Positions 334-15,616 of a stretch of 15,616 nucleotides of DNA are shown here, piece by piece; the first letter of the stretch is position 1, and every line of letters starts with the position of its first letter. A model generated the notes under the pieces. It did no database searches, was not told the DNA's origin, and saw nothing but the letters and a program-made list of their open reading frames with translations. The stretch is from Acidobacteriota bacterium (GTDB lineage Bacteria; Acidobacteriota; Vicinamibacteria; Vicinamibacterales; UBA823). The stretch is from NCBI GenBank assembly GCA_002720285.1, contig PBHT01000027.1:1-15616 (forward strand). The letters are read 5' to 3'. The translations under genes and the position numbers were made by a program.

Positions 334-343
334 GGGGGTGCGT

Positions 344-349
344 TATAAT
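344..349 (+). promoter_or_regulatory. Candidate -10 box upstream of the sialidase-like gene
   Basis: A perfect TATAAT lies 30 bases before the ATG at 380, in the short gap after the transporter stop codon. No good -35 hexamer sits 16-18 bases upstream; TTGACA (308-313) and TTGACC (314-319) are too far away. It is plausible as the -10 of a promoter for the sialidase-like/TlpA pair, but rests on one hexamer. Confidence 0.3.
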
Positions 350-379
350 TCTGCCTAAGGCGAATCTGACATTTCAAAT

Positions 380-1603: not shown

Positions 1604-2109
1604 AGACGCTCGGGACGCTGTGTTTGGTCTTGTGCGGCTTCGTCGTGTCTGCGTCAGCGCAGGAGGAAGGCGGGTCTGCCGACCTTATAAACGAGCCGGC
1701 GATCGAATTCGAGGGGGTGGACCTGGACGGAAACATCGTCCGTCTTTCGGACCTGACCGATAAGGTCGTGCTGATCAACTTCTGGGGAGTATGGTGTATA
1801 AGCTGCCGGCAGGAAATCCCTGAACTGGTCGCATTGGATCGGCAGTGGCGGGACCGAGGGTTGGTCATCCTTGGTGCTGATTATGGCGATGAGCCCAAAA
1901 CCCTGCCGCCTTTCGTTGAAGAGTTCGGGATGAGCTACCCAGTATTGCTCGACGACGGTCTGGCCGATCGCTATAGCGTCATCGTGTTCCCCACGAGTAT
2001 CCTCATCGATCGCTCTGGCCGTCTGCGACTGAGGGTCGAGGGGTTTCTGCCTGAGCGCTTTGAAATGATGACGGCCTCTATCGAGTACCTACTTGCCGAC
2101 GGCACGTAA
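1600..2109 (+). CDS. TlpA/ResA-like secreted thioredoxin-fold protein
   Basis: This is a 169-residue protein with a Sec signal peptide (hydrophobic core about 3-18, cleavage likely after SASA at 20). A thioredoxin-like AhpC/TSA-Redoxin domain follows. The active site is W65-C66-I-S-C69, set in an NFWGVWCISC context typical of TlpA/ResA proteins, and the cis-proline motif is VFPT (Pro130). Such proteins act in the periplasm on cysteines of particular partners, for example apocytochromes or copper-site proteins. Translation starts at a GTG whose bases overlap the TGA of the previous gene (GTGA, 1600-1603), with AAGGT about 9 bases upstream, so the two products are translationally coupled. The CECC/GCP protein encoded just before it is the obvious candidate substrate, by inference. 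No cytochrome maturation genes are in view. Confidence 0.85.
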   Translation: MKTLGTLCLVLCGFVVSASAQEEGGSADLINEPAIEFEGVDLDGNIVRLSDLTDKVVLINFWGVWCISCRQEIPELVALDRQWRDRGLVILGADYGDEPKTLPPFVEEFGMSYPVLLDDGLADRYSVIVFPTSILIDRSGRLRLRVEGFLPERFEMMTASIEYLLADGT

Positions 2110-2263
2110 GTCTGGCGCACTCCCACAACGCGCGGACATTTCAGACGTCCAACTGGGTCGTGTCGAGAGTGTTTAATCTGCAGGCAACGCCTGGAGCAGG
2201 AACGACGTTGCGGTGAAGTAGATTTCCTGCACTGCCTTCAGACTGCGCGCACCGTAGCGTGTT

Positions 2264-3466
2264 TTACTGTGAAACGCTCGGCCAGACAGCTCCTTGATCC
2301 TGCGCAGTGATTGGACCCATCCCCTTGTAAACGAAGCGCTGGACCCGTTTCCCTTCGTAGGTTTCCGTCGTGTAGACGTTGCCCTGCGAATCGGTGGCGA
2401 TACTATGCACACCGAAGAACTGACTGGGCTGGCGTCCACCGTCACCGAAGCTCGTGAGCACCTCAAGCGTATCGCGCTGGACGACGTGCACCTTTTCGTT
2501 TATGCCATCGGCGACATAGATGTAGGTTTGGTCCGCGTCCTTTGAAAAAGCGATATCCCAGACCGAGCCGGAGCCCAGCGTCTGTTTTGCGATAAACGCT
2601 TCCCGGATAAAGTTGCCTTCTGGGTCGAACACCTGGATCCGGTCGTTTGAGCGGTCGCACACGTAGAGTAGACGGTCGTGGGACAATTCGGCACAGTGGA
2701 CCGGGCTGCCAAACTGTTGCGGTGGTTCGGCGTTCGGGTCGTATCGGAAGGTGATGGAGTCATCGGGCTGATTCCCGTAAGCACCCCAATAGCGTTTGAA
2801 AGCACCAGTATCGGCATCAAGAACCGCGACACGCCGGTTACCGTACCCGTCAGCTATGTAAGCCTCGTTCTCTTCACCATCTACGAAGACTTTTGCCACG
2901 CGGCCAAAGTTTTCCGTGTCGTTACTGCCCGCATTGCCACCTGCGTTTCCAACCTGCAGAAGGAATTGCCCATCACTGGTGAACTTCAACACATGGGCAT
3001 CATCACCGCCGTTCCCACCGATCCAGAGGTTACCCTTGTGGTCGAAGGTGATGCCGTGGTTCGACTGAGGCCATTCGTAGCCCTCGCCTGGACCGCCCCA
3101 ATGGCCGATGAGGTTACCGGCTTGGTCAAATTCCAGCACCGGCGGGGCGGGCACACAGCACTCTTCGGCGATTGGCGGGTCATTAACGACAGGTGTTTCG
3201 TTGCGCGCATTCATCGACATGGCTCCGCGATGAACGATCCAGACATGGTCCTGATCGTCTACCGTTACACCAATCGTCGATCCGAGAATCCAGTGATTTG
3301 GTAGCGGCTTCGGCCATAGCGGGTCGACCTCGAACATCGGTGCTACGGGGCCTTGCGCCTCGGTGGTCTCAGTGGTTTCGTCCAGCACTGCCTGTCCACA
3401 CCCCATTACGATCAGGACTACCGCCAACGACGCGCTAACAAGAAGATTTCTCTTTGCGTATCCCAT
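2264..3466 (-). CDS. NHL-repeat six-bladed beta-propeller lipoprotein, PAL-like
   Basis: The 400-residue product begins with a basic/hydrophobic leader ending in VMGC (Cys23). This is a slightly atypical lipobox, so it is probably lipid-anchored after export. The remainder contains repeated NHL-type strands, such as the blades around 137-151, 254-271, 300-320 and 351-372. Three histidines, each at the start of a blade (NHGI His137, VHCA His258, VHSI His354), recall the zinc ligands of peptidyl-alpha-hydroxyglycine alpha-amidating lyase. Whether this protein has lyase activity is unknown. It also has an EECC pair (Cys103-104). The start is supported by GGGGAG about 5 bases before the ATG. It is convergent with the TlpA-like gene and separated from the next minus-strand gene by about 260 bases, so it is probably transcribed alone. 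Confidence 0.75.
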   Translation of the reverse strand: MGYAKRNLLVSASLAVVLIVMGCGQAVLDETTETTEAQGPVAPMFEVDPLWPKPLPNHWILGSTIGVTVDDQDHVWIVHRGAMSMNARNETPVVNDPPIAEECCVPAPPVLEFDQAGNLIGHWGGPGEGYEWPQSNHGITFDHKGNLWIGGNGGDDAHVLKFTSDGQFLLQVGNAGGNAGSNDTENFGRVAKVFVDGEENEAYIADGYGNRRVAVLDADTGAFKRYWGAYGNQPDDSITFRYDPNAEPPQQFGSPVHCAELSHDRLLYVCDRSNDRIQVFDPEGNFIREAFIAKQTLGSGSVWDIAFSKDADQTYIYVADGINEKVHVVQRDTLEVLTSFGDGGRQPSQFFGVHSIATDSQGNVYTTETYEGKRVQRFVYKGMGPITAQDQGAVWPSVSQ

Positions 3467-3679
3467 CGTTCTCCCCGTCGATAAGTGACTACCCCTCAGG
3501 GCAACGCTTACCTGCTGTGTCTAAAAGAAGGGCCAATTGTAAGGACTTAACGTCTAGACAGCAAGTTTCTTAAGCCGACCCGGACGGCCTAAGTCGGTGG
3601 GGGCAAAAACGTGCATGTCTCGGTCCAAACTGACGGTCACCTACGATAGCCCCTTTATTGAGGCTCTACCGCAACAGAG

Positions 3680-3711
3680 AAAAAAGGTCGCCTAGCCGTG
3701 GGTAGCCAACC
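3680..3711 (-). terminator. Rho-independent terminator after the cupin gene
   Basis: Read on the minus strand, a 9-base stem (8 pairs including one G-T, one mismatch) with arms 3703-3711 and 3686-3694 and an 8-base loop is followed by six Ts (3680-3685) and a further T-rich stretch. It lies 12 bases past the cupin stop codon and would end the tyrA/DUF3500/cupin transcript. Confidence 0.6.
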
Positions 3712-3723
3712 GATGCGGTGATG

Positions 3724-4239
3724 TCACTTCAGCTGAACTAGTTGGTCCGGGTCAATCCTAATGACTAAATAGGCGATGTCTTCCTCGATGTTGCTGAACC
3801 CGTGGGCGGTGCCGGCTGGAATAATAAGCATGTCATCTTTGCCGATCCTTTGGCTCTCACCGCCCTGAATACGTGGTCCGACCGAGCTTGGTCCTGTGAG
3901 GTTCTTGACGGTATTACCGTCGGGGTCTAGCGGTTGCCCGTCAACCAAAGTGCCGCCGGTGATGAGCGTGCCGGTTCCCTCAACAACGTAATACACCTCA
4001 GTCTGGTTGTGGTGCTGAATCGCACCACCCGGCTGCGTTGAGGGACGGCGCACTAGACCGATCCCCACGTTGTAGCCACCCGCATCAATCATCCTGATGG
4101 ATTGGTCGCTGACCCGACCCTCCGGCGCTGCGGCCATCGTTGCGGCAATATCATCAGCGCTGACGTATACGGTCGAGCCCGGGGGTGATTGGGTGGCGGT
4201 CAACCCGAGCAGCATAGCGAACACTCCGGTTCTTAGCAT
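3724..4239 (-). CDS. Secreted cupin-domain protein
   Basis: This is a 171-residue protein with a short signal peptide (about 1-17) and one cupin beta-barrel. The second cupin motif is textbook: PAGTAHGFSN at 141-150 with His146. The first motif reads QHHNQTEVYYVVEGTG. It has His76, His77 and Glu81, but the usual H-x-H spacing is altered because glutamine is at the first position, so metal binding may be through fewer or shifted ligands. An unusual glycine- and proline-rich insertion of about 35 residues (97-130) separates the motifs. Single-domain secreted cupins vary greatly in function, and none can be assigned here. AGGAG sits 7 bases before the ATG. The gene follows the DUF3500 gene by 48 bases on the same strand, suggesting co-transcription. 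Confidence 0.8.
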   Translation of the reverse strand: MLRTGVFAMLLGLTATQSPPGSTVYVSADDIAATMAAAPEGRVSDQSIRMIDAGGYNVGIGLVRRPSTQPGGAIQHHNQTEVYYVVEGTGTLITGGTLVDGQPLDPDGNTVKNLTGPSSVGPRIQGGESQRIGKDDMLIIPAGTAHGFSNIEEDIAYLVIRIDPDQLVQLK

Positions 4240-4287
4240 GATGATCTCCTTGCGATGTGACTGATGTCAGGCATTTGCAGTTTACGG

Positions 4288-5322
4288 TTATTGCTCAGCG
4301 TGATGCGGGAACTGTCGATAGTGAGCGGCTAAAAGGTCTTCGCCGAAGTCCCCGTTGAAGTCGCGCCAGACACTGTGGATGTGGTTGGCATCGTTCTGCG
4401 TGTTGTCGTATTCGACTAGGAAGGTAGGCCCCTGAATTCGGTAATAGTGGGCCTGCCCCCTTTCGATGCTGCCCATCCAGGCGAACTTGATCTGGTTCAT
4501 TCCCCCTGTGTGGAGTTGCTCGAGACGGTCGTGTGCGACCTGAGTGGGTTGCGCGTTGGCGTATTCTTCGATGAGGCGCACAAGCGCTTGCTGTTGTTCC
4601 GCTGTCAAACTTCCAAATGCCACGCCCGCGTCTCTTTGGGAGACCGCTTCACGGTCATTGGTCGTTAAAATGTCGTCTGGTGCGGTTTTACTAACGATGG
4701 CCTGTGCGCGCTGGGAAGAGTTCAGGGAATGAATGAATGTACGCGCCAAGTCCTCCTCGGCACCAAGAGCGCGAGTGCCGCGCATTGGGCCTTCCCTGAC
4801 CTCAGCCGGGTTTGCGCCGAAAAATTGCGGACTGGTAGCCATTGCGTAGCCGTTGACGATCGTCCAGTGTTGCGAGATATGGTGGCCTTCGTAGCGCCAG
4901 CCCCAGGGGCCATGCTCGGAGGGCTGCCCGAAGATCGTGAAGTAATACAACTCTGGGTCGCGGAATGCCCGCCCAGACATCTCGAACAGCACCAGCTCGA
5001 GTTGACGAATTGTTTCTGCCTTGCCGTAGCCCTTTTCGCTAAAGCCAGCTTTCAGTAAGTTGAGTGCGGCTTCCTGCTGCACTGTGTCCATTGATTTAAA
5101 GGGCAGACCCTTACGGTCTACGGGCGTATAAAACCAGTTGTAGCGTTCGGCAGCATCGAACGGCATGGTGGACTGCGCCAACTGGACGGGATCGAGGGTG
5201 TCGAGAAACATCTGGGTAGCCTCCAGCATCGCCGGTGCCGGTGCCTGGGCCTGATGGCTGGTTGAGGTCGTGGCGAGGCATACGAATGCAAGTGTTGTCA
5301 GTATTAAGGTCCGCATCGTCAT
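4288..5322 (-). CDS. DUF3500-family secreted protein
   Basis: The chosen start gives 344 residues with a clean Sec signal peptide (basic n-region MTMR, hydrophobic core to about 20, cleavage near HQAQA). Features I associate with the DUF3500 family are the PFDAAERYNWFYTPVDRKGL segment, the G-W-R-Y-E-G-H-H-x-S-x-H cluster, and the C-terminal HIHSVWRDFNGDFGEDLL segment. Members are secreted proteins of unknown function in soil and marine bacteria; the many histidines suggest metal binding. A strong AAGGAGG lies 6 bases before this ATG. An in-frame ATG at 5373 also has AAGGAGAG before it and would add 17 residues (MKILCRGLLVSILRRAT). That extension would spoil the signal peptide's short n-region, so I prefer 5322. 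Probably co-transcribed with the cupin downstream. Confidence 0.8.
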   Translation of the reverse strand: MTMRTLILTTLAFVCLATTSTSHQAQAPAPAMLEATQMFLDTLDPVQLAQSTMPFDAAERYNWFYTPVDRKGLPFKSMDTVQQEAALNLLKAGFSEKGYGKAETIRQLELVLFEMSGRAFRDPELYYFTIFGQPSEHGPWGWRYEGHHISQHWTIVNGYAMATSPQFFGANPAEVREGPMRGTRALGAEEDLARTFIHSLNSSQRAQAIVSKTAPDDILTTNDREAVSQRDAGVAFGSLTAEQQQALVRLIEEYANAQPTQVAHDRLEQLHTGGMNQIKFAWMGSIERGQAHYYRIQGPTFLVEYDNTQNDANHIHSVWRDFNGDFGEDLLAAHYRQFPHHAEQ

Positions 5323-5424
5323 CGTTGCCCTCCTTAAGATGCTAACGAGCAGCCCCCGACAGAGAATCTTCATCAGCGCTCTCCTTTTATGTGGCTAAGT
5401 GGATGACGTGGACCTGACTGCTCG

Positions 5425-6522
5425 CTACAGTAATCGCTTTTCGAGGTATCGTCTGCCGTCTTCCATCAGTTCTTGAAAAGCCATTTCATCACCGGTCTCC
5501 ACGATGTTACGAAAACGTCCAACTGCTGATTCGAGAGCGTCGAGCGACTCCATCCTAAAGTCATTGAGAGATTGGATTTCGAAGTATAGCTGTGGACTGT
5601 CATGAACAACGCGGCTGGCGACCTGCAGTTGTTCATCGAACGTTGTGCTCGAAAGCTCAGCCAAGGTTGGTGCTGCCTCACCGCTTTTGACAAGCGCTGT
5701 CATGAACGCGATGTTGGTAGCATGAGCCAACCCAAGCACCCAAGTGATCAGGCGGTCGTGACTCTCTAGATCCATACTGACGCGAACCGCCATCGTCGAA
5801 TTAAAGAGGTCTTCCGCTGCCGTGGTGGCTTCTGATACGCCCACGTCGATGAAGATTACATGGCGGCCAGACAATAGTTGTGTGTCTGGTCCGAACATCG
5901 GGTGGATCGACGTGACACGTATGCCTGCTTGTGCGAGCGTAGTAAGTCCTGGACGTACGGGGCTCTTTAGCGAGCCGATGTCAAAAACGATCCCATTTGG
6001 TGATCGTTCGGCTAATCCTAGGAGGATGACGTTGGAGGCGCGTAATGGCGCCGCTACCACGATGATGTCGTGGTCGAGGTCGAGAGATTCCCAATTAGCG
6101 CAGTGTGCATGGCCTTCAACCTTGCCTGCGGGATCAGCTACGTCTACTTGGAATCCCTGGGAGTCTAGGAACCTAACAAACCAGCGTCCCATTTTTCCAG
6201 CGCCGCCGATCACGAGGGCGCGTTGTCCCTCGCCACTGGCTTGGGTCACCACCTCATCATGCTCTTGAACCGTCAACGACGAGCGGATCAGTGACAAAAC
6301 TAGCTGTTCGGCAAGTTCTGGTGCGAAGCCGAGCTCGGCGGCTGTCGCTCGGGACCGATTAATAACGGCTTTTTCTTGACGGTAGTCGCGGAGGGGGAGT
6401 CCGGCCGCACGTTTTGTGGAACCGACCGTGAGTGAAAGGCGCTGCCGTGCGGCGACGAGCGTTAAAATCTGCCGGTCCAGGTCGGCCAATTCTGCTCTGA
6501 GGTCGGTTAGGGGCTTGGCCAC
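5425..6522 (-). CDS. tyrA: Bifunctional chorismate mutase/prephenate dehydrogenase (T-protein)
   Basis: This is the cytoplasmic enzyme of tyrosine synthesis: chorismate to prephenate, then NAD-dependent oxidation to 4-hydroxyphenylpyruvate. The N-terminal ~85 residues match an AroQ chorismate mutase (LRAELADLD, then VGSTK). They are followed by a Rossmann motif [12 protein letters not shown] and the dehydrogenase domain. The HPMFGPD histidine corresponds to catalytic His197 of E. coli TyrA, AHATN to its His257, and [12 protein letters not shown] carries the equivalent of Arg294. In the mutase domain the usual (A/E)RE reads RQE, so the arginine aligned with Arg51 of the E. coli PheA mutase appears shifted or lost. 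The frame is open to a TTG at 6621; I chose the GTG at 6522 because it gives 365 residues and VAKPLTDLR at the position of E. coli MVAELTALR. TTG at 6528 is an alternative; no clear Shine-Dalgarno is visible. It precedes DUF3500 by about 100 bases. Confidence 0.85.
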
Positions 6523-6779
6523 GGCCAATTGTAGCCCAGCCTCGCCAAACAGGGATTTGGCAAAGCGAAGGCGGCGATCGAATAAAGGGCGGGGTCGGGC
6601 ATTCTGCCTTCGCGCTCGCAAGCAGCGCGGATTCTGGCCTGTAGTGCTGCTCTGTTCTTAGGGAGGGGCGTAACCCTTGAAATTAGGGCCCCGGGTTCCG
6701 GCTGAGCGCTCTCCTAGTGTAGTATTACCCTGATACTCGGTAGGTAATTGGGGACTTAGAACAAGCGAGGAGCGCACGA

Positions 6780-8150
6780 ATGTCAGAGAGACTTTGGTTG
6801 AATCGAAGAGCGTTTCTGCGGGGTGCGGGGATCACTGCGCTCGCTGGCGCTGCCAACTCGGGGCCTTCGCTGGTGACTCCTGTGCGAGCCGATTCGCTGG
6901 ACCAGGCAGGTTCCACCAACTACGACTTCGATACGGTGTACGACCGGGTCGGATCAAGTTCTGTGAAGTGGGACGCGGCGATCGATAGGTATGGCCGCGA
7001 GAATATTGATGTTGGCATGGGGATCGCGGATATGGACTTCCGTGCTGCTCCCTGTATCACTCGTGGGTTGGCGGAACGTTGCAAGCATGAAAACTGGGGC
7101 TACATGAGCACGCCTCGGAGTTTCTATCAGCAGATTGCTGACTGGAATAAAAATCGTTACGGGCTCGAAGTAGACCCCGAATCAATCACCCTCTCCGACG
7201 GCGTTCACCCGGCGCTGATCGCGGCGTTGAACGCACTCGCACCAGCCGGAAGTAAAGTGCTTTTGGGGACGGCCGTGTATAGCGGGTTTTATGGAGACCT
7301 CCGGTGGAGTCGGACCATTGCAGAAAATAGTCCGATGATTGTGGAAAACGGTCACTACCGGATGGATTTTGATGACCTTGAATCTCGGATGAGTCACGAC
7401 ACCGACGCGATGATCCTTTGCAATCCACAGAACCCGACGGGTAACTGCTGGTCGGAAGAGGATTTGTTGCGGTTGGGACGGATGTGTCTTGAGCATCGGG
7501 TGGTGGTCCTGTCTGACGAAATTCATTGTGATTTCGTTATGAAAGGGCAGAAGTACACGCCATTTGCAAGCTTGCCTGACAAAGAGGTCGTGGACAACAG
7601 CGTGACCTTCAAAGCTGCAAGTAAGACCTTTAGCCTCGCGGCTATGAAGATTGCCTGGTTCTTTTCCACGAATCCCGAATATATGGAACTGATACGTGCG
7701 CAGCATCGGGCGAACACCAATACGTTGGGGGTAGTGGCTAACCAGGCCGCTCTGACTGATGAAGGCGCAGACTGGTTGGACCAGGTGAACGTCTACATTG
7801 ACGGAAACCAGGACTTCGCTGAGCAATATATTCGAGAGAACCTGCCAGGGGTCGAATATACGAAGGCGGAGGGCACCTACTTGGCGTGGATTGATATTAG
7901 CGGAGTAGCTGAACGCCTTGATGCGAAGCGTTTAGCCGCGGAGGCTACGGCGAACAGTGAAACGGGTAGACCGGTGACGGCGGAGGCGATCGTGGGGAAT
8001 TGGTTCGTCGACAACGCGAAGGTCCAGTTGAATGCCGGGTCGTCCTACGGGCCAGGAGGTGAGAATCACATGCGGATGAACGTAGCCACCTCTCGTAAGA
8101 TTCTCAAGCTGGCGCTCGATAACATGGCTGCGGCGCTCAACGACCTGTAG
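6780..8150 (+). CDS. Tat-exported MalY/PatB-type PLP-dependent C-S lyase (aminotransferase fold)
   Basis: The 456-residue product is a fold-type I PLP enzyme closest in pattern to MalY/PatB cystathionine beta-lyases (cystathionine or cysteine conjugates to a thiol, pyruvate and ammonia). Evidence is the N-terminal D-x-V-x-D-R-x-G-S-x-x-x-K-W-D segment, ISDMDF-like GIADMDFRAAP, and NPQNPTG (215-221). Further support comes from SDEIHCDFV with Asp246 for the PLP nitrogen and KAASKTFSLAA with Lys282 as the Schiff-base lysine. The unusual part is the leader: NRRAFLRGAGITALAGAA is a twin-arginine signal, so the enzyme should be folded with PLP in the cytoplasm and exported. GAGGAG lies 8 bases before the ATG. 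It is divergent from tyrA and ends just before a strong terminator. A class I/II aminotransferase activity is the alternative. Confidence 0.85.
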   Translation: MSERLWLNRRAFLRGAGITALAGAANSGPSLVTPVRADSLDQAGSTNYDFDTVYDRVGSSSVKWDAAIDRYGRENIDVGMGIADMDFRAAPCITRGLAERCKHENWGYMSTPRSFYQQIADWNKNRYGLEVDPESITLSDGVHPALIAALNALAPAGSKVLLGTAVYSGFYGDLRWSRTIAENSPMIVENGHYRMDFDDLESRMSHDTDAMILCNPQNPTGNCWSEEDLLRLGRMCLEHRVVVLSDEIHCDFVMKGQKYTPFASLPDKEVVDNSVTFKAASKTFSLAAMKIAWFFSTNPEYMELIRAQHRANTNTLGVVANQAALTDEGADWLDQVNVYIDGNQDFAEQYIRENLPGVEYTKAEGTYLAWIDISGVAERLDAKRLAAEATANSETGRPVTAEAIVGNWFVDNAKVQLNAGSSYGPGGENHMRMNVATSRKILKLALDNMAAALNDL

Positions 8151-8176
8151 GCTTGTCAGAATACTTCGGTTAAATC

Positions 8177-8216
8177 GGGCCCGGCTCTGATAATAGGGCT
8201 GGGCCCTTTTTTATTT
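8177..8216 (+). terminator. Rho-independent terminator after the MalY-like gene
   Basis: A 12-pair GC-rich stem (8177-8188 with 8195-8206, including two G-T pairs) with a 6-base loop is followed by TTTTTTATTT (8207-8216). It lies 26 bases past the stop codon at 8150 and separates this gene from the flavoenzyme downstream. Confidence 0.9.
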
Positions 8217-8279
8217 CGGTGTGCTTGGGTAAGGCGGCTCGAAGACGACATTGACCTGCGTGGTATGTGAGAGCCAAAC

Positions 8280-9620
8280 ATGAAGAAACACAAACAAGTT
8301 GAGAGAATCGCAAGACCCTTGAGTTCCAATTCTATGACTAGGAGGTCGGTGTTAAAGGCTACAGTGGCTTCGATTCTTGGCTATCAGTTGGCCGGTGATG
8401 CGGCAACATTGAATGCCTCACTAACGGATGAGAAGATTCGAAACCGTTACCAGCAGTCACACATTGCTGTGATTGGGGCTGGTGGGTTTGGCGGCTGGAC
8501 AGCATTGAGCTTGCTCCGGAAAGGTGCAAAGGTCACTTTGCTTGATACTTGGGGACCTGGAAACGCTCGCGCCAGTTCTGGCTGTGAACGGCGAATGATT
8601 CACAGTCAACTCTACGCTGTGGGAAGCACGGGTTCGAATAAGGAGGTCTACCGACCTCTCTACATGGACATGATTACGCGCGCTCTTCAGCTGTGGCGTG
8701 AACATGAAAAACGCTGGAACCGACAATTGTATTTTCCCTGTGGATCACTAACTCTTCAACCCAAGGATGCCCAAGATGGCAGGGAAGCGCTTGCTTATAT
8801 GCGTGAGCGGGGAACTGCTGTAGAGGAACTTTCACTGCAGGATTTAGAGCGTCGTTACCCGCAAATTAATCTAGAAGGGGTGTCGTGGGGATTGCTCGAT
8901 GTTGACAGCGGATATTTGCGGTCACGGCTGGCGTGTCAGGAACTCTTCAGAGGTTTTCTTGAAGAGGGAGGAGAGTATCGGCAGGTATCTGTCAAAGCCC
9001 CTGAGATAGATGGTAGTGGGCTCGACAGCCTCAGTTTATCTGACGGCTCTCGACTGTCCGCTGACCAATATATCTTTGCGTGTGGACCCTGGCTTGGTCA
9101 GTTGTTTCCGGGAACGATCCGGATCCGGCCGTCTCGCGCTGAGGCGTTCTTCTTTGGAACACCAGTTGATGATCACCGGTATGATGACCAACACCTGCCG
9201 ATTTGCATAGACGGCACTCGCAGTCCCAGTGCTGCTGTTGTTCCAGATGGTGACTTTCGAGGATTGTTAGTTGAAGGTGGTCCTCCAAGAGTACGGATTA
9301 TTGATCCGACTACTGAAGAACGGGTTCTGACAACGGATCTGCTGGCCTTTCATCGCGAGTATCTGGCTCTTCGGTTTCCAGGCATGAAGGACGCACCACT
9401 GCTCTCGATGAGAGTGTGTCAATACGAAAATAGTGACGATCGCAATTTTGTAATAGATCGACATCCTGCAGCGGAGAATGTGTGGCTTATTGGCGGTGGT
9501 TCAGGCCATGGATTTAAGCACGCACCAGTAATTGGGGAGTGGGCGGCTGAGATGGTTTTTCAGGAGAGAGCCGTTGAACCTTTGTTCGGGCTGCAACGAT
9601 TTACAAGACGTCTGGCGTAA
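8280..9620 (+). CDS. Tat-exported FAD-dependent amine oxidase, DAO/sarcosine-oxidase-like
   Basis: This is a 446-residue flavoenzyme. After a twin-arginine leader (TRRSVLKATVASILG, residues 20-34) comes the FAD-binding VIGAGGFGGWTA (GxGxxG at 66-71). The sequence then follows monomeric sarcosine oxidase/N-methyltryptophan oxidase in plan: D-x-(W/F)-x-P-x-x-(A/G)-S-S near 89-101. At the C-terminus is FVIDRHP and GGGSGHGFKHAPVIGE, which line the flavin. Cys380 (RVCQYE) is at the position of the cysteine that binds FAD covalently in sarcosine oxidase. Such enzymes oxidise secondary or primary amines to imines, giving H2O2; the substrate here is unknown. The ATG at 8280 has a weak ribosome site; an in-frame ATG at 8334 (MTRRSVLKA) is a reasonable alternative. 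No terminator lies before the propeller gene starting 64 bases later. Confidence 0.8.
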   Translation: MKKHKQVERIARPLSSNSMTRRSVLKATVASILGYQLAGDAATLNASLTDEKIRNRYQQSHIAVIGAGGFGGWTALSLLRKGAKVTLLDTWGPGNARASSGCERRMIHSQLYAVGSTGSNKEVYRPLYMDMITRALQLWREHEKRWNRQLYFPCGSLTLQPKDAQDGREALAYMRERGTAVEELSLQDLERRYPQINLEGVSWGLLDVDSGYLRSRLACQELFRGFLEEGGEYRQVSVKAPEIDGSGLDSLSLSDGSRLSADQYIFACGPWLGQLFPGTIRIRPSRAEAFFFGTPVDDHRYDDQHLPICIDGTRSPSAAVVPDGDFRGLLVEGGPPRVRIIDPTTEERVLTTDLLAFHREYLALRFPGMKDAPLLSMRVCQYENSDDRNFVIDRHPAAENVWLIGGGSGHGFKHAPVIGEWAAEMVFQERAVEPLFGLQRFTRRLA

Positions 9621-9684
9621 TAAGCCGCCCAGGTTTTGGTGGTTACGACCTCTTTCTACGGATGCAGGACGGCAGAAGGAAGCG

Positions 9685-11139
9685 ATGCTGATGGCACGAT
9701 TGAAGGCTAGAGTGGGGACCTGTCTGCTTGTCGTTGTGGTCCTGGGCGTGGTCGCGACAAAACCCGAAGCGGTTGGGGATGACTGGAACCGGTTCCGCGG
9801 CCCAAATGGCTCTGGGGTGATTGAGGCCACCGGGCTGCCGCTAGACTTTGGACCAGAGACTAATGTGGTCTGGAAGACCACAGTGGCACCGGGCTTCTCT
9901 TCACCGGTAATTAGCGGAGACCGCCTGCTTCTTACGGCGTTCGAGAACGACCAGCTAATTACGACATCTCTAGATCGGCAGAGCGGACGAATTTTATGGC
10001 GCCAGGCGGTGGAGCGGACGCGTGTCGATCGACCGGATTCCCGTAATCACTCCGCTGCGGCTAGTGCCGCGGTCGATGCAGTTGGCAATGTCTATGTGTT
10101 TTTCGGGGAGTTCGGTCTGATTGCGTATGACCGCGAGGGTGTTGAACAGTGGCGTCACCCCTTGGGTCCCTTTGACAACATTTATGGAATGGGTGCCTCG
10201 CCGATCGTGGCTGACAACCTAGTGCTGTTAGCGTGTGATCAGCAGAATGGGTCGTTTCTACTAGCAGTTGACGCCGATACTGGTGAGGTGCGTTGGAAGG
10301 TGGACCGTCCTGAGGCGAAGAGTGGACACTCATCGCCAGTTCTCTACGATCCCCCTGATGGACCGCTTCAGGTGCTGATGGCTGGCTCGTTTCTCCTCAC
10401 GGCCTACGATGTGGCGACTGGTGAGAAGCGATGGTGGGTTGGTGGATTACCGTTCGAAATGAAGTCGACTCCGGTGATGGACGGTGACACGCTCTACGTC
10501 CACGGTTTCTCCACGCCGCTCAACCAACCAGGCCGGCAGGTTGAGGTTGACAGTTGGGAAGACACGATTGCGGTCCACGATGCTAATGGTGATGGCCTAA
10601 TCGCACCTGATGAGTTTCCTCAGGAGCGTACGCGAGGATTTTTCTCCTTTGTTGATCTCGATGCTGACGGCCAATTGGACGAAGATAGTTGGAACTACTA
10701 TCGGGCTGCCATGATGAGCCTGAACGGGATGGTTGCTATCCGTCTTGGTGGGTCGGGGGACATGACTGAGGAAAACGTTGTCTGGCGGTACCATCGTTCG
10801 GTACCGCAGCTCCCATCACCGCTTTTGTATCAGGGCGTGCTCTACATGATCAACGACGGCGGGATAGCCACATCATTCCGTCCTTCCACTGGCGAGGTCA
10901 TTGAACGCGGTCGGATCCGAGGCGCAGTGGATAGTTACTACGCTTCGCCGGTTGCTGCTGACGGTAAAATTTTCTTCGTGAGTGAAATGGGGAAGGTAGC
11001 TGTTGTGCGACCAGGTGGAGGTTTTGAAGTTTTGGCGCTTAATGACCTCGGGTCCCCCACGTATGCGACGCCGGCGATTGCTGATGGGCGGATTTACATC
11101 CGCACCGAGGAGACGCTCTGGGCATTCGGCGAAGACTAA
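9685..11139 (+). CDS. Secreted PQQ-type beta-propeller protein with EF-hand loops
   Basis: From this start the protein has 484 residues, with a signal peptide (MLMARLKARV, then a V/L-rich core to about 24). The mature part opens with DWNRFRGPNGSG, the usual opening of PQQ-like (BamB/Trp-docking-type) propellers of environmental bacteria. It continues as repeated blades with A-x-D-x-x-(T/S)-G-(E/x)-x-x-W motifs. Between blades sit two calcium-loop motifs: DANGDGLIAPDE (299-310, a full EF-hand loop) and DLDADGQLDEDS (324-335, with Ser instead of Glu at position 12). No PQQ-dehydrogenase catalytic residues were recognised, so a binding or scaffolding role is as likely as an enzymatic one. The open frame reaches back to 9532 inside the flavoenzyme gene. 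I chose 9685 because GAAGGA precedes it and it yields a proper signal peptide; the ATG at 9691 is equally possible. Confidence 0.75.
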   Translation: MLMARLKARVGTCLLVVVVLGVVATKPEAVGDDWNRFRGPNGSGVIEATGLPLDFGPETNVVWKTTVAPGFSSPVISGDRLLLTAFENDQLITTSLDRQSGRILWRQAVERTRVDRPDSRNHSAAASAAVDAVGNVYVFFGEFGLIAYDREGVEQWRHPLGPFDNIYGMGASPIVADNLVLLACDQQNGSFLLAVDADTGEVRWKVDRPEAKSGHSSPVLYDPPDGPLQVLMAGSFLLTAYDVATGEKRWWVGGLPFEMKSTPVMDGDTLYVHGFSTPLNQPGRQVEVDSWEDTIAVHDANGDGLIAPDEFPQERTRGFFSFVDLDADGQLDEDSWNYYRAAMMSLNGMVAIRLGGSGDMTEENVVWRYHRSVPQLPSPLLYQGVLYMINDGGIATSFRPSTGEVIERGRIRGAVDSYYASPVAADGKIFFVSEMGKVAVVRPGGGFEVLALNDLGSPTYATPAIADGRIYIRTEETLWAFGED

Positions 11140-11211
11140 GCACGTGAGAAGTGCTGACACCACCGTAGCATCTGGCCTCAATCGTCTACATCAAGGAAGT
11201 AGTTTGGTTGT

Positions 11212-11820
11212 CTAGCGGACCCCGCTTGAGAGCGGCGTGTTGTTGATCGGAATCATGATGTGTGCACCTGGTGTGCCAGCACGCATCAACCATGGCTGTC
11301 CTTGCCCCTTCAAGGCGTTATCCCGCTGGCTGACCGTCGAGACACCGACCGCTTCTGAGGTTGCACCAGGCACCCGCATTACCCAGAGCAACCTAATCCT
11401 TCGGTCGTCGTGTCGAAGTAGATACATCATCGAACCGTAGGCTGGTGGGGGAAGTGTGCCTGTCTGGCGCGCAGCGACGATTCCTGCTTGGACCTCTCCA
11501 GGGGATTTGCCCTCGGCGCGGAGTCTCGCCATAAGATCGAATTGAGTGGCGAGCGTCTTGCTGTAACAGCTTGTCTGCATGGCGTCTGCGTCCATTGGCT
11601 GACACTCCACTTGGTTCGTGCCTTGACGCAGCACCTGTCGGGCACCGGTAGTGGGGTCATAGGTCACCACGGTCGCGTCTGCCTTGAGGTCTTCGGGCAG
11701 AGGAAGAACGGCATCAGTAATCTGCTGTTCCGTCGGCTGGGCTTGGACACTGGTCGGACCAACTAGTGGGCTACCGATGAATGCGACGACGATGAGACTC
11801 CAAACAAGTTTTATAATCAT
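11212..11820 (-). CDS. Secreted single-unit C-x11-C protein, unrecognised family
   Basis: The 202-residue product has a Sec signal peptide (MIIKLVWSLIVVAFIG, cleavage near VQAQ at 28), then one 164-residue unit (31-194) and a short tail TPLSSGVR. I do not recognise a named family. Within the unit are VLPLPEDLKADATVV, VLRQGTN, a cysteine pair Cys73/Cys85 spaced C-x11-C, and a charged probably helical stretch (LRAEGKSPGEVQ). The unit ends in RLLWVMRVPGAT, SQRDNAL, PWLMRAGTPGAH and IMIPINN. It is about 70% identical by hand count to the second unit of the gene upstream, including the tail, so it arose by recent tandem duplication. The ATG at 11820 lies 13 bases after the stop of that gene, without its own Shine-Dalgarno, suggesting translational coupling; a GTG at 11844 would overlap it. 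Function unknown. Confidence 0.75.
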   Translation of the reverse strand: MIIKLVWSLIVVAFIGSPLVGPTSVQAQPTEQQITDAVLPLPEDLKADATVVTYDPTTGARQVLRQGTNQVECQPMDADAMQTSCYSKTLATQFDLMARLRAEGKSPGEVQAGIVAARQTGTLPPPAYGSMMYLLRHDDRRIRLLWVMRVPGATSEAVGVSTVSQRDNALKGQGQPWLMRAGTPGAHIMIPINNTPLSSGVR

Positions 11821-12865
11821 TAATTCGCAATCGCTAGCGACCACTCGACAGAGGTGTGTTGTTGATCGGAATCATGATGTGCGCACCTGGTGTACCAGCA
11901 CGCATCAGCCATGGCCGCCCCTCACCCTTCAGGGCGTTATCCCGCTGGCTGACCGTCGAGACGCCGATTGATTCTGGCGTCGCGCCGGGCACTAGCATCA
12001 CCCAGAGGAGCTTGATCTGTCGGTCGTTATGCCGTAACAGATACATCATTTCCCCGAACGACGACGGCGGGAGCGTACCTGCTTCACGCCCGGCAGCAAT
12101 CGCTGCCTGAATTTCCGCACCGGACTTGCCCTCGTCGCGAAGCTTCGCTGTGAGGTCCCGTACCGGGGCGCTGCTTCGATTACGGCAGAACGTTTGCTGG
12201 CTCACTGGGTCTGGGGGCTGACACTCGACTTGGTTTGTGCCCTCTCGGAGAACCACTCGGGCACCAGTGTCCGGGTCAGTGGCTACTACGGTCGCCTCAG
12301 CCTTTAGGTCCTCGGGCAGTGGCAGAACTGCCTCAGCGATTTTCTGTTCGACCGATTTATTCGACCATAGCGTGTTGTTGATTGGGATCATGACGTGTGC
12401 CGCTGGCGTGCCAGGACGCATCAACCAGGGCCGGCCCTGGCCGTTCAACGCGTTGTCCCGTTGGCTGTCAGTCGAAACACCGGTTGATTCCGGCGTTGCA
12501 CCAGGCACCCGCATTACCCAGAGCAGTCGAATCCGGTCGTCTTTCTTATAGAGGCGATACGACATGGTTCCGGAGGGTGCTTCTGGAATGGTACCGTCCT
12601 GGACAGCAGCAGCAATCGCGGTCTGAATTTCCTCAGGGGACTTACCCTCGGCGCGGAGCTTGGCCGTTAGGTCGTTTCGGGGCGCGAGTATTTTATTGTA
12701 GCAGCGAGTGAACCCCGTTTCCTGGTCCTCAGGTTGGCATTCCACGATGTTTGTGCCTTGCCGAAGGACCTTTCTGATGCCTGTATCGGGCTCGTAAGTC
12801 ACGACTGTCGCGTCAGCCTTCAGGTCCTCCGGTAGAGGCAGGACCGCATTGGTGACTTCCTGATC
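11239..12865 (-). repeat. Three tandem 492-base coding repeats
   Basis: The three units occupy 12374-12865, 11858-12349 and 11239-11730, each exactly 164 codons, ungapped relative to each other. The first two are fused in one gene, the third is the next gene. DNA identity is visible over long runs between the last two units, such as the segments at 11237-11262 and about 11855-11880 and the matching CGCTGGCTGACCGTCGAGAC stretches some 618 bases apart. Confidence 0.85.
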
Positions 12866-12949
12866 GGCCGATTGAGCCTGAGCACCGGCGGGTCCGACCA
12901 GGACAGTACTTGTAAGAACGACTGCGAGTAAGCTAACGACACTCTTCAT
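11834..12949 (-). CDS. Secreted two-unit C-x11-C protein, unrecognised family
   Basis: This 371-residue protein has a Sec signal peptide (MKSVVSLLAVVLTSTVLVG, cleavage near GAQAQ at 26) and two copies of the same 164-residue unit (29-192 and 201-364) joined by an 8-residue linker. Each unit has VLPLPEDLKA(D/E)ATVV, VLR(Q/E)GTN, one C-x11-C pair (Cys71/83 and Cys243/255), R-L-L-W-V-M or K-L-L-W-V-M, SQRDNAL, and PWLMR-x-GTP-x-AH(V/I)MIPINN. The cysteines probably form a disulfide in the periplasm. I do not know a named domain; I recall unannotated secreted proteins with a similar 'DATV...LR.G(T/S)N...C' opening in environmental bacteria, without function. GGAGG stands 5 bases before the ATG. 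The gene starts 18 bases after the molybdoenzyme stop, so it belongs to that operon and is likely a partner of that enzyme (inference). Confidence 0.8.
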   Translation of the reverse strand: MKSVVSLLAVVLTSTVLVGPAGAQAQSADQEVTNAVLPLPEDLKADATVVTYEPDTGIRKVLRQGTNIVECQPEDQETGFTRCYNKILAPRNDLTAKLRAEGKSPEEIQTAIAAAVQDGTIPEAPSGTMSYRLYKKDDRIRLLWVMRVPGATPESTGVSTDSQRDNALNGQGRPWLMRPGTPAAHVMIPINNTLWSNKSVEQKIAEAVLPLPEDLKAEATVVATDPDTGARVVLREGTNQVECQPPDPVSQQTFCRNRSSAPVRDLTAKLRDEGKSGAEIQAAIAAGREAGTLPPSSFGEMMYLLRHNDRQIKLLWVMLVPGATPESIGVSTVSQRDNALKGEGRPWLMRAGTPGAHIMIPINNTPLSSGR

Positions 12950-12967
12950 TACGACCTCCGTAGACTG

Positions 12968-14137
12968 CTAAGCGATCATTACTGTTCGTGGATGTTGGGC
13001 ATTGTGCTCAAGGAACGTCTTCTTGACCTCGAGCTCCGCCGCGGTTGGCTGGACGGTGCCCTCGATGTCAGTTGCACGGGAAACGACCGTATGCTCTCCA
13101 GGAGTAGCGCCGTGCCAGTCGTAGGTAAAAAACTTCCACGAGTATTTTTCGCTCGTGGTGGGATCCATGGTGACTGGCTGCCATGAGCCATCATCCACCT
13201 TTACCTCGACCGACCTTAGCGGAGTTCCGTCATTCAGGACGACGCCGAAAACTTGGTGGCGGCTGCCGTTAGAAGTCACCCGTGCCACGAACGACTTCAA
13301 CTGAATGGTCGAAATATCAGTTTCCTTCCACTTCATCTCGCCGTTGATCATTTCCCCCTTCAACGTGCGATAGTGGCGGGCTTGAAACTTGCCGAGATAC
13401 CGGTCCTCTTGGACGTGAATCTCAGCGAGCCATTTGACGAGAGCCATGCCGTACCAACCCGGAACGAGCAATCGTAGTGGGAAGCCTTGATGGCGTGTCA
13501 GTGGTTCGCCGTTCAGTGCGTAAACCAGAATCGGCTCAGACGACAGTGCCTTCTCCCTTGCGAGACTCCGGCCATACTGTTGATCCACTGTGTAGGGACG
13601 GCCACGAAATTCAACCACCTCTTCACCGTGGTCAGCTCCGAAAAAGACGAACTCTTTCGCATCAGCCTTCACACCAGCACGGTCCAGTACCGTTCGGAGC
13701 GGTACGCCGGTCCAACGACCGTTGCCGGAGAGACCGTTTAACGGACCTCGATTTCCAGAGCACTCGAATCCGACCACGATTTCCCTGCTGGGCATGGTAC
13801 GTAGGTCGTCGATTGAGAGAGATAGTGCTTGGTCGACTAGACCAGAAATCCGTAGTCGATAGGTAGAAGGGTCGATGACCGGGTGCCCGTAATGCTGCGT
13901 GGTAGCGAACTGATCAGCAGGGGTGAACTGACCGTTTTCTGGGATCGTCCGGATATCAATAATGCGTGTTTCTGGACTCCGCACGAGGGTGAGAGGGTCG
14001 TCTATGTCGGTGAATGGGACGAGCGTCTCGCCCTGCGCGAGAGCTGGAAGCGCCCATTCCGGTATGCCGAGGAGGCCAATTCCGGCCACCGCGAGGCCGC
14101 CTTTCAGAATGTCCCGTCGATTGCTCTGTATCGTCAT
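12968..14137 (-). CDS. Tat-exported sulfite-oxidase-family molybdoenzyme
   Basis: The 389-residue product begins with a twin-arginine leader (NRRDILKGGLAVAGIGLLG), as expected of a protein exported with its molybdopterin cofactor already in place. The oxidoreductase molybdopterin-binding domain covers about 75-250. The molybdenum-ligating cysteine is Cys126 in VVGFECSGNRG. RLLVPGWYGMALVKWL (222-237) matches the conserved strand of sulfite oxidases. A C-terminal immunoglobulin-like Mo-cofactor dimerisation domain follows (about 260-380). Known relatives oxidise sulfite or related sulfur compounds and pass electrons to a c-type cytochrome; none is encoded here. Instead, two Cys-pair proteins follow within the same operon. 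AAAGGG lies 8-9 bases before the ATG. A possible -35 (TTGACG on the minus strand, 14186-14191) lies in the divergent gap with the RidA gene. Substrate is not determined. Confidence 0.85.
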   Translation of the reverse strand: MTIQSNRRDILKGGLAVAGIGLLGIPEWALPALAQGETLVPFTDIDDPLTLVRSPETRIIDIRTIPENGQFTPADQFATTQHYGHPVIDPSTYRLRISGLVDQALSLSIDDLRTMPSREIVVGFECSGNRGPLNGLSGNGRWTGVPLRTVLDRAGVKADAKEFVFFGADHGEEVVEFRGRPYTVDQQYGRSLAREKALSSEPILVYALNGEPLTRHQGFPLRLLVPGWYGMALVKWLAEIHVQEDRYLGKFQARHYRTLKGEMINGEMKWKETDISTIQLKSFVARVTSNGSRHQVFGVVLNDGTPLRSVEVKVDDGSWQPVTMDPTTSEKYSWKFFTYDWHGATPGEHTVVSRATDIEGTVQPTAAELEVKKTFLEHNAQHPRTVMIA

Positions 14138-14276
14138 TTCCGAACCCTTTCTGTATCAGGCGGTGACAAATGCCCCACAACACACCGTCAAGTTTTATCA
14201 CGAACTGCGTTCTAGCGTAAGAAATCGTCACGTGGCCAAGTCGGGAGAGGAGTTAAGTGCCCTGGTAAGCTGCGTG

Positions 14277-14282
14277 TATGAT
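14277..14282 (+). promoter_or_regulatory. Candidate -10 box for the RidA-like gene
   Basis: TATGAT lies 50 bases before the ATG at 14332, with a weak TTAAGT at 14253-14258 at 18-base spacing. It fits a leader of about 43 bases. The evidence is only these hexamers. Confidence 0.2.
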
Positions 14283-14331
14283 CAGTGCACTTGACAGGAC
14301 TGCCGTTGGCCTCGGTATCTAGGAGACAGAT

Positions 14332-14808
14332 ATGCAATTTGTGACTCGGTCTATCGGACTTTCGTTCGTGCTCGGTATTGTGACCACTCTTATCGTGACC
14401 GGAGTTGTCAATTCACAACAGCCCGGTCGGCAAATTCTTGATCCTGGTGGTCCCGGAACAGAGAACCCGGACCGTGCTTACAGTCGAGGTGTACGGATTG
14501 GGAACACACTTTACGTCGCTGGGAACACGGGGCAGGTGGAAAACACGGGTAGCCTCGATCGGGACCTTGAGACGGAGATCAGAAGTCTACTCGACGGTTT
14601 CAAGAGCAATGTTGAAGCAGGCGGTATGACGATGGACGACTTGGTCTGGGTGCAGATCTTCTGCACTGACCTTGCGCTATACGATATGTTCAACGAAATT
14701 TACGGGAGCTACTTCAGCGGGCCGTTACCGTCCCGTGCCTTCATCGGGACCAGTACACTTCTTGGCAACTCTCACTTTGAAATCATGGGCACTGCAGTGG
14801 ATGAATAG
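14332..14808 (+). CDS. Exported RidA/YjgF-family protein
   Basis: This 158-residue protein carries a signal peptide or N-terminal membrane anchor (hydrophobic residues about 8-26, then NSQQP). The rest matches the RidA/YjgF/Rid fold, which forms trimers and in RidA itself hydrolyses reactive enamines and imines released by PLP and flavin enzymes. Visible family features are AYSRGVRIGNTLYVAGNTG (49-67), the helix with FKSNVEAGGMTMDDLVWVQIF, and PSRAFIG with Arg135 at the position of the substrate-binding Arg105 of E. coli RidA. A near-terminal FEIMGTA also fits. Typical RidA proteins are about 130 residues and cytoplasmic, so the extra length is the leader. AGGAGA lies 5-6 bases before the ATG. 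It is divergent from the molybdoenzyme and convergent with the gene at 14899. Exact activity within the Rid subfamilies is uncertain. Confidence 0.8.
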   Translation: MQFVTRSIGLSFVLGIVTTLIVTGVVNSQQPGRQILDPGGPGTENPDRAYSRGVRIGNTLYVAGNTGQVENTGSLDRDLETEIRSLLDGFKSNVEAGGMTMDDLVWVQIFCTDLALYDMFNEIYGSYFSGPLPSRAFIGTSTLLGNSHFEIMGTAVDE

Positions 14809-14843
14809 GTCTCGACAGTCGGGCTCTAAACACCGAAGCACGC

Positions 14844-14871
14844 AGGGGTATGGGTGTGGACCCATACCCCT
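14844..14871. terminator. Perfect 12-base-pair hairpin between convergent genes
   Basis: AGGGGTATGGGT (14844-14855), loop GTGG, and its exact reverse complement (14860-14871) form a perfect stem-loop in the gap between two convergent genes (stops at 14808 and 14899). There is no T-run on either side, so it is a bidirectional hairpin of terminator-like position rather than a standard Rho-independent terminator. Confidence 0.5.
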
Positions 14872-14898
14872 ACGATTCCTCGACTCTGTTGACAGTAG

Positions 14899-15450
14899 TT
14901 AGGGGAGGGTCACCATGAGGTGCGCACTCGCCGTGCCCGCCTGCATGAGAAACAGGACACCACCCGTTCGCTCAGCCGGCAGACTGAGGGATTCATGGGT
15001 TGCGTATGGCACTGTGACCGTCATGTGCGGTGTCGCACTTTCCTGATCGTCGCCCCAGTTGTAGTAGTAAATCGAGCCGAACACCGGAAGCTCCCGCGTG
15101 CCGTTCTCTTCGGCTGCGGCACCTAAAGCATTCACCTCTTCGCGACTGTTCCCGGCTCTGGAGAACGCGAGGTTTTGTTCGTATCGTGCTAGATTGCCTT
15201 TATTGGTGCACTGTACAAAGAATGGGCGCCGGGGGTTCTGGCCGGAGCGGTCCCAGCAAATAAAGTCGTTACTACCCTCGCGAAGCATTTCGCGATTGCC
15301 GTCCGCATCCCATGTCACCACGGAGGCGTCGGCCTGGGCTCCAGCGGGTGCTGCCGATACGGCCCGTGCGATAGTTTCCTCCGCAGTTTGAGCATTCGCG
15401 GCAGTCGACACGGTCAGGACTATACAAGCGAACTGTATGATGCGCTTCAT
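14899..15450 (-). CDS. Secreted single-unit Cys-pair protein, divergent member of the unrecognised family
   Basis: The 183-residue product has a Sec signal peptide (MKRIIQFACIVLTVSTAANA, cleavage at about 20). Its single unit shares the pattern of the tandem units encoded at 11212-12949: ADASVVTWDADGNREMLREG against DATVV..D..G.R.VLR.G, then (S/T)N followed by a cysteine pair (Cys65/Cys81, here C-x15-C) and C-x-N. A charged stretch (SREEVNALG), L-P-x-F-G-S-I-Y-Y and the closing LMQAGTASAHLMVTLP against LMRAGTPGAHIMIPINN also match. Similarity is clear at both ends but weak in the middle, so the split is old. The protein may have kept an ancestral form. The ATG at 15450 is preferred because GGAGG sits 7 bases before it; the adjacent GTG at 15453 is the alternative. 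A long structured leader precedes it. Function unknown. Confidence 0.7.
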   Translation of the reverse strand: MKRIIQFACIVLTVSTAANAQTAEETIARAVSAAPAGAQADASVVTWDADGNREMLREGSNDFICWDRSGQNPRRPFFVQCTNKGNLARYEQNLAFSRAGNSREEVNALGAAAEENGTRELPVFGSIYYYNWGDDQESATPHMTVTVPYATHESLSLPAERTGGVLFLMQAGTASAHLMVTLP

Positions 15451-15474
15451 CACGTTACCTCCATTATTGTGAAC

Positions 15475-15561
15475 CCCGCCAGGCTGTTGGCCCAGCGAGA
15501 CGCTCAGAGGTGATTGTAGGTTTCTTTAGCCACCTCTGACAATGGGTGGCTGCTGGGCGGG
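15475..15561 (-). promoter_or_regulatory. Structured leader with nested inverted repeats upstream of the Cys-pair gene
   Basis: A perfect 9-base inverted repeat (TCAGAGGTG at 15504-15512, CACCTCTGA at 15531-15539, spacer 18) is nested inside a second pair (GCCCAGC at 15490-15496 with GCTGGGC at 15552-15558) and flanked by CCCGCC/GGCGGG. On the minus-strand transcript this lies between a possible promoter and the ribosome site. It could be a regulatory leader hairpin, an operator, or the terminator of a gene beyond the window. Confidence 0.4.
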
Positions 15562-15571
15562 TCTTGTGAGG

Positions 15572-15599
15572 TGTATAGTCATAGCTTAGTGCACGTAAA
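15572..15599 (-). promoter_or_regulatory. Candidate promoter for the Cys-pair gene at 14899
   Basis: Read on the minus strand, TTTACG (15594-15599) and TATACA (15572-15577) are spaced by 16 bases, each matching four of six consensus positions. Transcription would begin near 15565, giving a leader of about 115 bases that contains the inverted repeats. Confidence 0.3.
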
Positions 15600-15616
15600 T
15601 TGGCGGTCCAGTGGTA

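Follow-up and report, generated by a model that had tools for sequence, protein, structure and literature searches.

An operon of a molybdoenzyme and Cys-pair proteins

The window, by which we mean the whole 15,616-nucleotide stretch of DNA analysed here, is contig PBHT01000027.1, positions 1-15,616, of assembly GCA_002720285.1 from an Acidobacteriota bacterium (Vicinamibacterales; UBA823). Its minus strand carries a gene for a sulfite-oxidase-family molybdoenzyme, followed after 18 bases by a gene for a protein of two similar units and, 13 bases further on, by a gene for a one-unit protein (Table 1). A preliminary description of the window had given this operon structure and a set of motifs shared by the units; genes, strands, gaps, motifs and a C-x11-C pair in all three units were as it stated. 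Identity between the one-unit protein and the units of the two-unit protein is 64-72%. From LPLPEDLKA to AH(I/V)M the distance is 147 residues in each unit and the tandem period is 172 residues; the 164 residues quoted for a unit vary with where it is cut. We infer secretion of these proteins from their signal sequences. The one-unit gene starts with the ATG at 11820, and an alternative GTG at 11844 would make it overlap the upstream gene. Against two relatives, the fetched loci L006 (all four genes) and L008 (three genes), the unit genes have ratios of non-synonymous to synonymous substitution rates of 0.11-0.26 and the enzyme gene has 0.09-0.17, so that the genes are not chance. The count of three units was too low. 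A fourth, divergent unit had been overlooked near the end of the window, as had a fifth elsewhere in this genome (contig G000:C12), found with the profile and the two-unit query. The fourth keeps the M and the H-x-M of the hairpin motif in Table 1, has F in place of W, and is one of seven divergent single units that group together in the tree with 100/100 support. Throughout, L numbers are fetched loci, G numbers are genomes (G000 being the window's own) and f1 is the window's own family, with nine genomes.

Table 1. Features on the window, with the evidence for each (aa, amino acids; E, expectation value; pLDDT and pTM, AlphaFold2 confidence scores; Tat, twin-arginine translocation).
Feature	Positions	Strand	Evidence
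Tat-type sulfite-oxidase-family molybdoenzyme, 389 aa	12968-14137	-	PF00174, E 1.6e-45; TAT_signal, E 0.0033, below cut-off; SorA model, 173/600 bits; nearest PDB entry SorA 2blf, E 1.2e-37
Two-unit Cys-pair protein, predicted secreted, 371 aa	11834-12949	-	open reading frame; two profile matches, 11837-12364 and 12350-12952
Unit 1 of two-unit protein, carries predicted signal peptide	12350-12949	-	profile match; grouped in the tree with unit 1 of f1
Unit 2 of two-unit protein	11837-12364	-	profile match; modelled alone, pLDDT 94.0, pTM 0.86
One-unit Cys-pair protein, predicted secreted, 202 aa	11212-11820	-	open reading frame; AlphaFold2 pLDDT 91.4, pTM 0.82
Cys pair C73/C85, one-unit protein	11566-11604	-	96/96 rows; 37/37 units from motif-free searches
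Cys pair C71/C83, unit 1	12701-12739	-	
Cys pair C243/C255, unit 2	12185-12223	-	
W-L-M-x2-GT-x2-AH-x-M hairpin motif, one-unit protein, residues 177-189	11254-11292	-	alignment, model, motif-free set
W-L-M-x2-GT-x2-AH-x-M hairpin motif, unit 1	12389-12427	-	alignment
W-L-M-x2-GT-x2-AH-x-M hairpin motif, unit 2	11873-11911	-	alignment
Divergent fourth unit, 184 aa, C66/C82 (C-x15-C)	14899-15453	-	E 5e-14, two-unit query; E 1.4e-61, profile
L-PSP/Rid-like protein, predicted secreted, between enzyme and fourth unit, opposite strand, neighbour only	14332-14808	+	PF01042, E 2.9e-18

The unit had been called an unrecognised family, and searches of Pfam and NCBIfam bear this out, since no named family matched it above its cut-off. 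A scan of the 96 rows of our alignment, with single searches, gave weak and inconsistent matches only (best E 0.0018 and 0.0048), and neither a haem nor a cupredoxin family matched the unit in these databases. A profile search of PDB sequences found no match (best E 0.051), and two AlphaFold2 unit models (pLDDT 91 and 94) had no Foldseek match at E<=0.001. Two named candidates were rejected. DUF4412 is the UniRef name of one protein in a Bacteroidota branch; that protein and five others match no Pfam family even at E 10. Cytochrome P460, represented by members of PF16694, reached an hhalign probability of 0.2% against sequences from three of five P460 loci. The window's single unit retrieved 361 proteins among 591 candidates, the 96-row profile 1,881 among 8,000 scored, and a Gillisia member used as seed 7,243 matching 90%-identity clusters among 7,308 candidates. 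None of the best 120 listed for each search has a Pfam domain, and the names shown, one 'DUF4412' apart, call them 'hypothetical' or 'uncharacterized'. Of 339 loci, 80 were kept, and these span Acidobacteriota, Alphaproteobacteria, Gemmatimonadota and Bacteroidota; the unit occurs in 57 of 297 genomes in a draw of Acidobacteriota and in 101 of the 162 in the window's order (E<=1e-20). At three alphaproteobacterial loci (L029, L030 and L032) single-unit genes occur as an adjacent pair whose second member has A-H-I-H instead of A-H-I-M.

Because the 80 loci were found with a peptide pattern containing PWLM and GT, conservation of W177, M179, G182 and T183 in the 96-row alignment, where one row was entered twice, is partly selected. 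A motif-free recount of 37 units, nine of them also among the 96, has C73, C85 and H187 in 37/37 and W177, M179 and M189 in 36/37 each. In the 96-row alignment, M189 is replaced by H in three of four exceptions. Exactly two Cys follow residue 26 in 92/96 rows, and C73 and C85 lie on neighbouring strands in the AlphaFold2 model; a structural disulfide is therefore a likelier role for the pair than electron transfer. The near-invariant W177-x-M179 and H187-x-M189 lie on a predicted C-terminal beta-hairpin. The models give a previously undescribed domain of alpha/beta type, about 165 residues long and predicted to be secreted. It forms thousands of 90%-identity clusters, has invariant residues and is modelled with confidence, yet it lacks a Pfam or NCBIfam entry and no solved fold was found to match it, which makes it a good target for structural and functional work.

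The molybdoenzyme and the units

The enzyme is, by its matches, a member of the sulfite-oxidase superfamily. PF00174 matches it at 155 bits against a gathering score of 24; its Tat signal, at 17.7 bits, is below the cut-off of 22.7. Like SorA, SorT and SoxC, it has the PF00174 domain, a Tat-like signal and aligned Cys (of ECSGN), His and Tyr residues. In the alignment with SorA we take these three to be the Mo ligand and active-site residues. Unlike those enzymes, it has no adjacent gene for a cytochrome subunit, scores far under the NCBIfam equivalog cut-offs (159 of 420 bits for SoxC and 126 of 570 for SorT; SorA in Table 1) and has Thr for an Arg of SorA. The motif TTQH(Y/F)GHP occurs in 28 sequences of the group, the window's included, and its second T is kept in 26 of them; the SorA Arg at that place, two before the His, presumably binds sulfite. 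Matches to the enzyme at E<=1e-20, paralogues counted, are found in 113 of the 162 genomes of the order. MsrP-type repair, in which a sulfite-oxidase-fold enzyme repairs Met in secreted proteins, was considered and rejected (46.8 bits against a cut-off of 207).

The preliminary description offered the units as an electron or thiol partner of this enzyme, replacing a missing cytochrome c. For related enzymes, SorT/SorU and SorAB, cytochrome acceptors are described (PMC4760952). The 15 genes called in the window include none for a protein with CxxCH. The short gaps of the operon also favour the proposal, as does the situation in f1, where clade-A units occur in 7/9 genomes and the enzyme lies 19-22 bases from them in 6/7. 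Clade A comprises units scoring about 230 bits or more in the order-wide profile search; those placed in the tree fall into a single clade that also contains L166 (support 100/98). Context was counted at one locus per genome, many of the loci L006-L028 and those with G handles being identical contigs.

Outside f1, however, the enzyme profile matches nothing within 6 kb of the unit at any of 22 clade-A loci, and the 25 best orthologues of the enzyme (67-74% identical; three loci end-cut) all lack a unit within 1.5 kb. A gene encoding CxxCH lies within 1.5 kb of only two of these 25, so that in any case the acceptor of these enzymes seems to be a distant one, and the unit matches neither a haem nor a cupredoxin family. 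We regard a role of the units as electron or thiol partner as very unlikely. The neighbourhood scoring that had been suggested as a check finds no general association of unit and molybdoenzyme (0/22 and 0/25), and these reciprocal searches rule out a fixed partnership as a general rule. Two loci still stand against that rejection. In G326 a distant PF00174 protein of 240 residues lies 3.4 kb from a clade-A unit on the other strand, and in G261, a single case, a different superfamily enzyme, followed by a cytochrome c gene, adjoins a clade-B unit on the opposite strand. What survives of the earlier proposal is the gene order, kept in 6/7 f1 genomes with units, and, likely, the redox setting. 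The first guess is corrected in that the molybdoenzyme is not a fixed partner of the unit.

Sulfur-oxidation genes beside the doubled unit

The 22 clade-A loci outside f1 represent 12 genera. On the same strand, a DsrE-like gene adjoins the unit in 16 of them, a TsdA-like gene lies within 3 kb in 12, and ccoN is present in 10. The gaps are 9-101 bases between profile matches for the DsrE-like gene, and ccoN follows 8-11 bases downstream. Twelve clade-B loci served as controls, 11 of them from the same genomes and some short-flanked (L172, L174 and L178); they have no DsrE-like gene, no TsdA-like gene and no ccoN, with one weak CcoOP match (L175). Fisher p values for clade A against the controls are 3e-5 for the DsrE-like gene, 0.001 for the TsdA-like gene and 0.005 for ccoN, and overstate independence, as the loci share descent. 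Counted per genus (n=12), the figures are 8, 4 and 3. The DsrE-like gene is present at 15/17 two-unit loci vs 1/5 one-unit loci, and the link with sulfur genes belongs to the doubled form. Titles and opening abstract lines of open-licence PMC articles gave us no description of the unit or of a DsrE - two-unit - TsdA or DsrE - ccoN cluster.

By Pfam, the neighbours are COX1, FixO/CBB3 and SoxA-TsdA cytochrome proteins, with PF21342 in both of the clade-A neighbours scanned. The clade-A TsdA-like protein matches thiosulfate dehydrogenase 4wq7 (E 1e-39), making it a putative TsdA. PF02635 is matched by 2/17 rows of clade A's DsrE3 (best E 1.4e-12); DsrE1 is linked to the DsrE family only by hhalign to DsrE3, and DsrE2 only via DsrE1, not to DsrE3 directly. 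Across 17 aligned DsrE-like rows one Cys is invariant. In the Vicinamibacterales the clade-A two-unit gene is found inside DsrE - cbb3 oxidase - TsdA clusters in 10/19 genomes with this ccoN, and an oxidase-free DsrE - two-unit - TsdA order occurs at L146, L147 and L281-L284. The window's clade-A copy, in contrast, lies beside the molybdoenzyme.

Seven further loci of lower-scoring units were fetched without regard to context, and five hold two-unit genes. They form a second two-unit clade, present in the window's family, with units 33-39% identical to the window's. A DsrE gene ends 21-28 bases upstream of the two-unit gene in 4/5 loci, the fifth being cut 58 bases before the unit, and a SoxA-TsdA cytochrome gene lies downstream in 5/5. 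Above-cut-off matches were obtained for both DsrE proteins scanned (PF02635, E 1.1e-11 and 3.1e-11) and both cytochromes scanned (PF21342). The five loci amount to at most three distinct sequences, L282/L283 being 98% and L281/L285 93% identical DNA. This context supports a sulfur-related reading of the doubled unit. Taxonomic assignment places the members of each near-identical pair in different genera or families, perhaps through a binning error.

One of these loci, L281, comes from the window's genus (G392) and matches the left end of the window at 92% over 2,260 bases. Window base 1 corresponds to L281:5399, inside a MATE gene (PF01554; window 1-333, plus strand), and the DsrE gene of L281 starts at 6879. 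By synteny, a DsrE - two-unit - TsdA operon may lie 1.5 kb past the window's contig end, the window genome being 81% complete; in two further genomes of this genus, G277 and G394, the search did not find it. Where the window continues at about 2254-2259, L281 has an extra piece (2489-3142) with a small sulfite-oxidase-fold gene matching a YedY-like profile.

The unit tree (n=62) bears on how the doubling arose. Well supported branches require two changes for unit 1 of clade A and two for unit 2, which indicates that this clade either doubled its unit twice or had its history obscured by gene conversion. Doubling may have been still more frequent, since the tree covers neither the two-unit L177 nor the second doubled clade.

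A role like that of SoxYZ would place the unit among carriers of sulfur intermediates, the Cys pair or the Met/His patch holding a sulfane or thiosulfonate between the DsrE-like protein, TsdA or the molybdoenzyme. SoxY carries a C-terminal arm with a carrier Cys. The unit resembles SoxYZ in being small, predicted to be exported and beside sulfur-oxidation genes; it differs in having no such C-terminal Cys and no Sox model among its Pfam and NCBIfam matches. Its position directly beside DsrE-like proteins with their invariant Cys, in 16/22 loci and in 4/5 of the second clade, favours a carrier, and a DsrE homologue is reported to take thiosulfate from tetrathionate on a Cys (PMC4175335). However, the presence of just two Cys in 92/96 rows, on neighbouring predicted strands, suggests a closed disulfide, and the pair is equally invariant in members without DsrE-like neighbours. 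We consider a carrier role unlikely.

A proposed role for the doubled unit

In our best reading, the doubled unit is exported and assists the oxidation of sulfur compounds outside the cytoplasm, with a patch that binds a soft ligand, Cu(I) by preference; we give this reading a probability of roughly 0.45. Each unit would be held by a cross-strand disulfide, C73-C85, and W177-x-M179 would face H187-x-M189 on the C-terminal hairpin as a ligand-like patch. In the periplasm, the doubled form would have DsrE-like and redox proteins as working partners. In other families of the order, and in the second doubled clade present in f1, its gene lies directly beside the DsrE-like one; a TsdA-like dihaem cytochrome is usually encoded close by, and some genera add a cbb3-type oxidase. 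The window's clade-A copy lies beside the gene for the sulfite-oxidase-family enzyme instead. The gene order provides the first testable lead on the unit: sulfur-compound oxidation in Vicinamibacterales, with a cbb3 oxidase in the cluster in some genera.

Besides the shared descent of the loci, several observations weigh against this reading. Six of the 22 clade-A loci have no DsrE-like gene, though the contigs of G418 and G273 end within about 115 bases of the unit and that of G324 is only 4 kb. The two-unit L177 and the loci L286 and L287 lack all of these neighbours. Loci from Bacteroidota, Gemmatimonadota and Alphaproteobacteria match none of the neighbour profiles yet keep the motif, so the core function of the unit need not be sulfur-related. 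The reciprocal count is also mixed. The cbb3-type ccoN occurs in 19/162 genomes, and the two-unit gene is just upstream in 10; in the other nine no unit is adjacent, and DsrE1 directly adjoins ccoN in seven of these, so that the unit is optional in the module. DsrE1 itself occurs in 43/162 genomes; 13 of 30 fetched loci have a unit within 1.5 kb and 17 do not. As for the patch, the spatial clustering of W, M, H and M is deduced from strand register, and the C12 paralogue of the window's genome lacks M179 and M189. In f1, this ccoN is absent from 9/9 genomes at E<=1e-10, the identical query matching elsewhere, and a DsrE1, DsrE2 or DsrE3 profile matches somewhere in 8/9.

Some of these points would fit a secreted domain of a general kind whose function is unrelated, such as a part in envelope structure or the binding of an organic ligand, and which hitch-hikes in these operons. 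Many members are lone single units without neighbours that recur by eye, flavobacterial copies sit in ordinary synteny beside valS and ftsH (recognised by eye), and the unit is missing from nine of the 19 oxidase modules. However, the short distances to ccoN (8-11 bases) and to the DsrE-like gene (9-101 bases) across several genera, against 0/12 controls, are hard to square with a passenger, as is the finding that another two-unit clade, only distantly related, repeats the DsrE - two-unit - TsdA order. Hitch-hiking therefore seems to us unlikely, and we prefer the accessory of sulfur-compound oxidation.

Within that preferred reading, the Cu(I) site is the most speculative element. By weak analogy with CusF, the patch might bind Cu(I), either holding or delivering copper near the oxidase or buffering copper that is sensitive to thiols. 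CusF binds Cu(I) through His36, Met47 and Met49 under a Trp44 cap (PMC9302797). The likeness, a working one only, is that the unit's Trp, two Met and one His are close in sequence on a predicted hairpin. The unit differs in its Cys pair and ligand order; CusF did not appear in the Pfam scan, the PDB profile search or the Foldseek matches listed for the unit models, and we take the unit to be the larger protein. A bolder proposal would have the unit be a new fold with a new soft-metal site, W-x-M facing H-x-M, present in at least four phyla and missed by family databases. Its doubled form would supply or guard copper in DsrE/TsdA modules, in some genera with a cbb3-type oxidase, and would have been re-used beside the sulfite-oxidase-family enzyme in the window's lineage. 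We consider this whole picture quite unlikely.

Several further observations concern these neighbourhoods and the rest of the window. A compact DsrE-oxidase module, with a DsrE-like gene directly beside cbb3 ccoN and no unit, is seen at L237, L242, L244 and L247-L250. A pair of genes for secreted-type proteins, one with a CxxCH cytochrome motif and one ending in a conserved CCWT stretch, recurs some kilobases or less from units of clade A or the second clade at L141, L144, L146, L147 and L281-L285; the pair is found at 0/12 clade-B controls. A small secreted DUF5818 protein adjoins a clade-B unit in two Acidobacteriota families (L103:2040-2366 and L108:1169-1492). The L-PSP/Rid-like gene lies within 6 kb of a unit in 5/7 f1 genomes. 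Elsewhere in the window are a chorismate mutase and prephenate dehydrogenase fusion (5425-6621, minus strand; PF01817, PF02153 and PF20463) and a secreted-type DUF3500 protein (4288-5373, minus strand; E 7.8e-93) with a cupin protein nearby at 3724-4239. The gene at 6780-8150 (plus strand) encodes a protein of class I/II aminotransferase fold (PF00155) with a Tat-like signal, NRRAFLRG, apparently an exported enzyme of the pyridoxal-phosphate type. Two tandem Tat-type genes at L223:2867-4036 and 4309-5478 are, by eye, aminotransferase-like.

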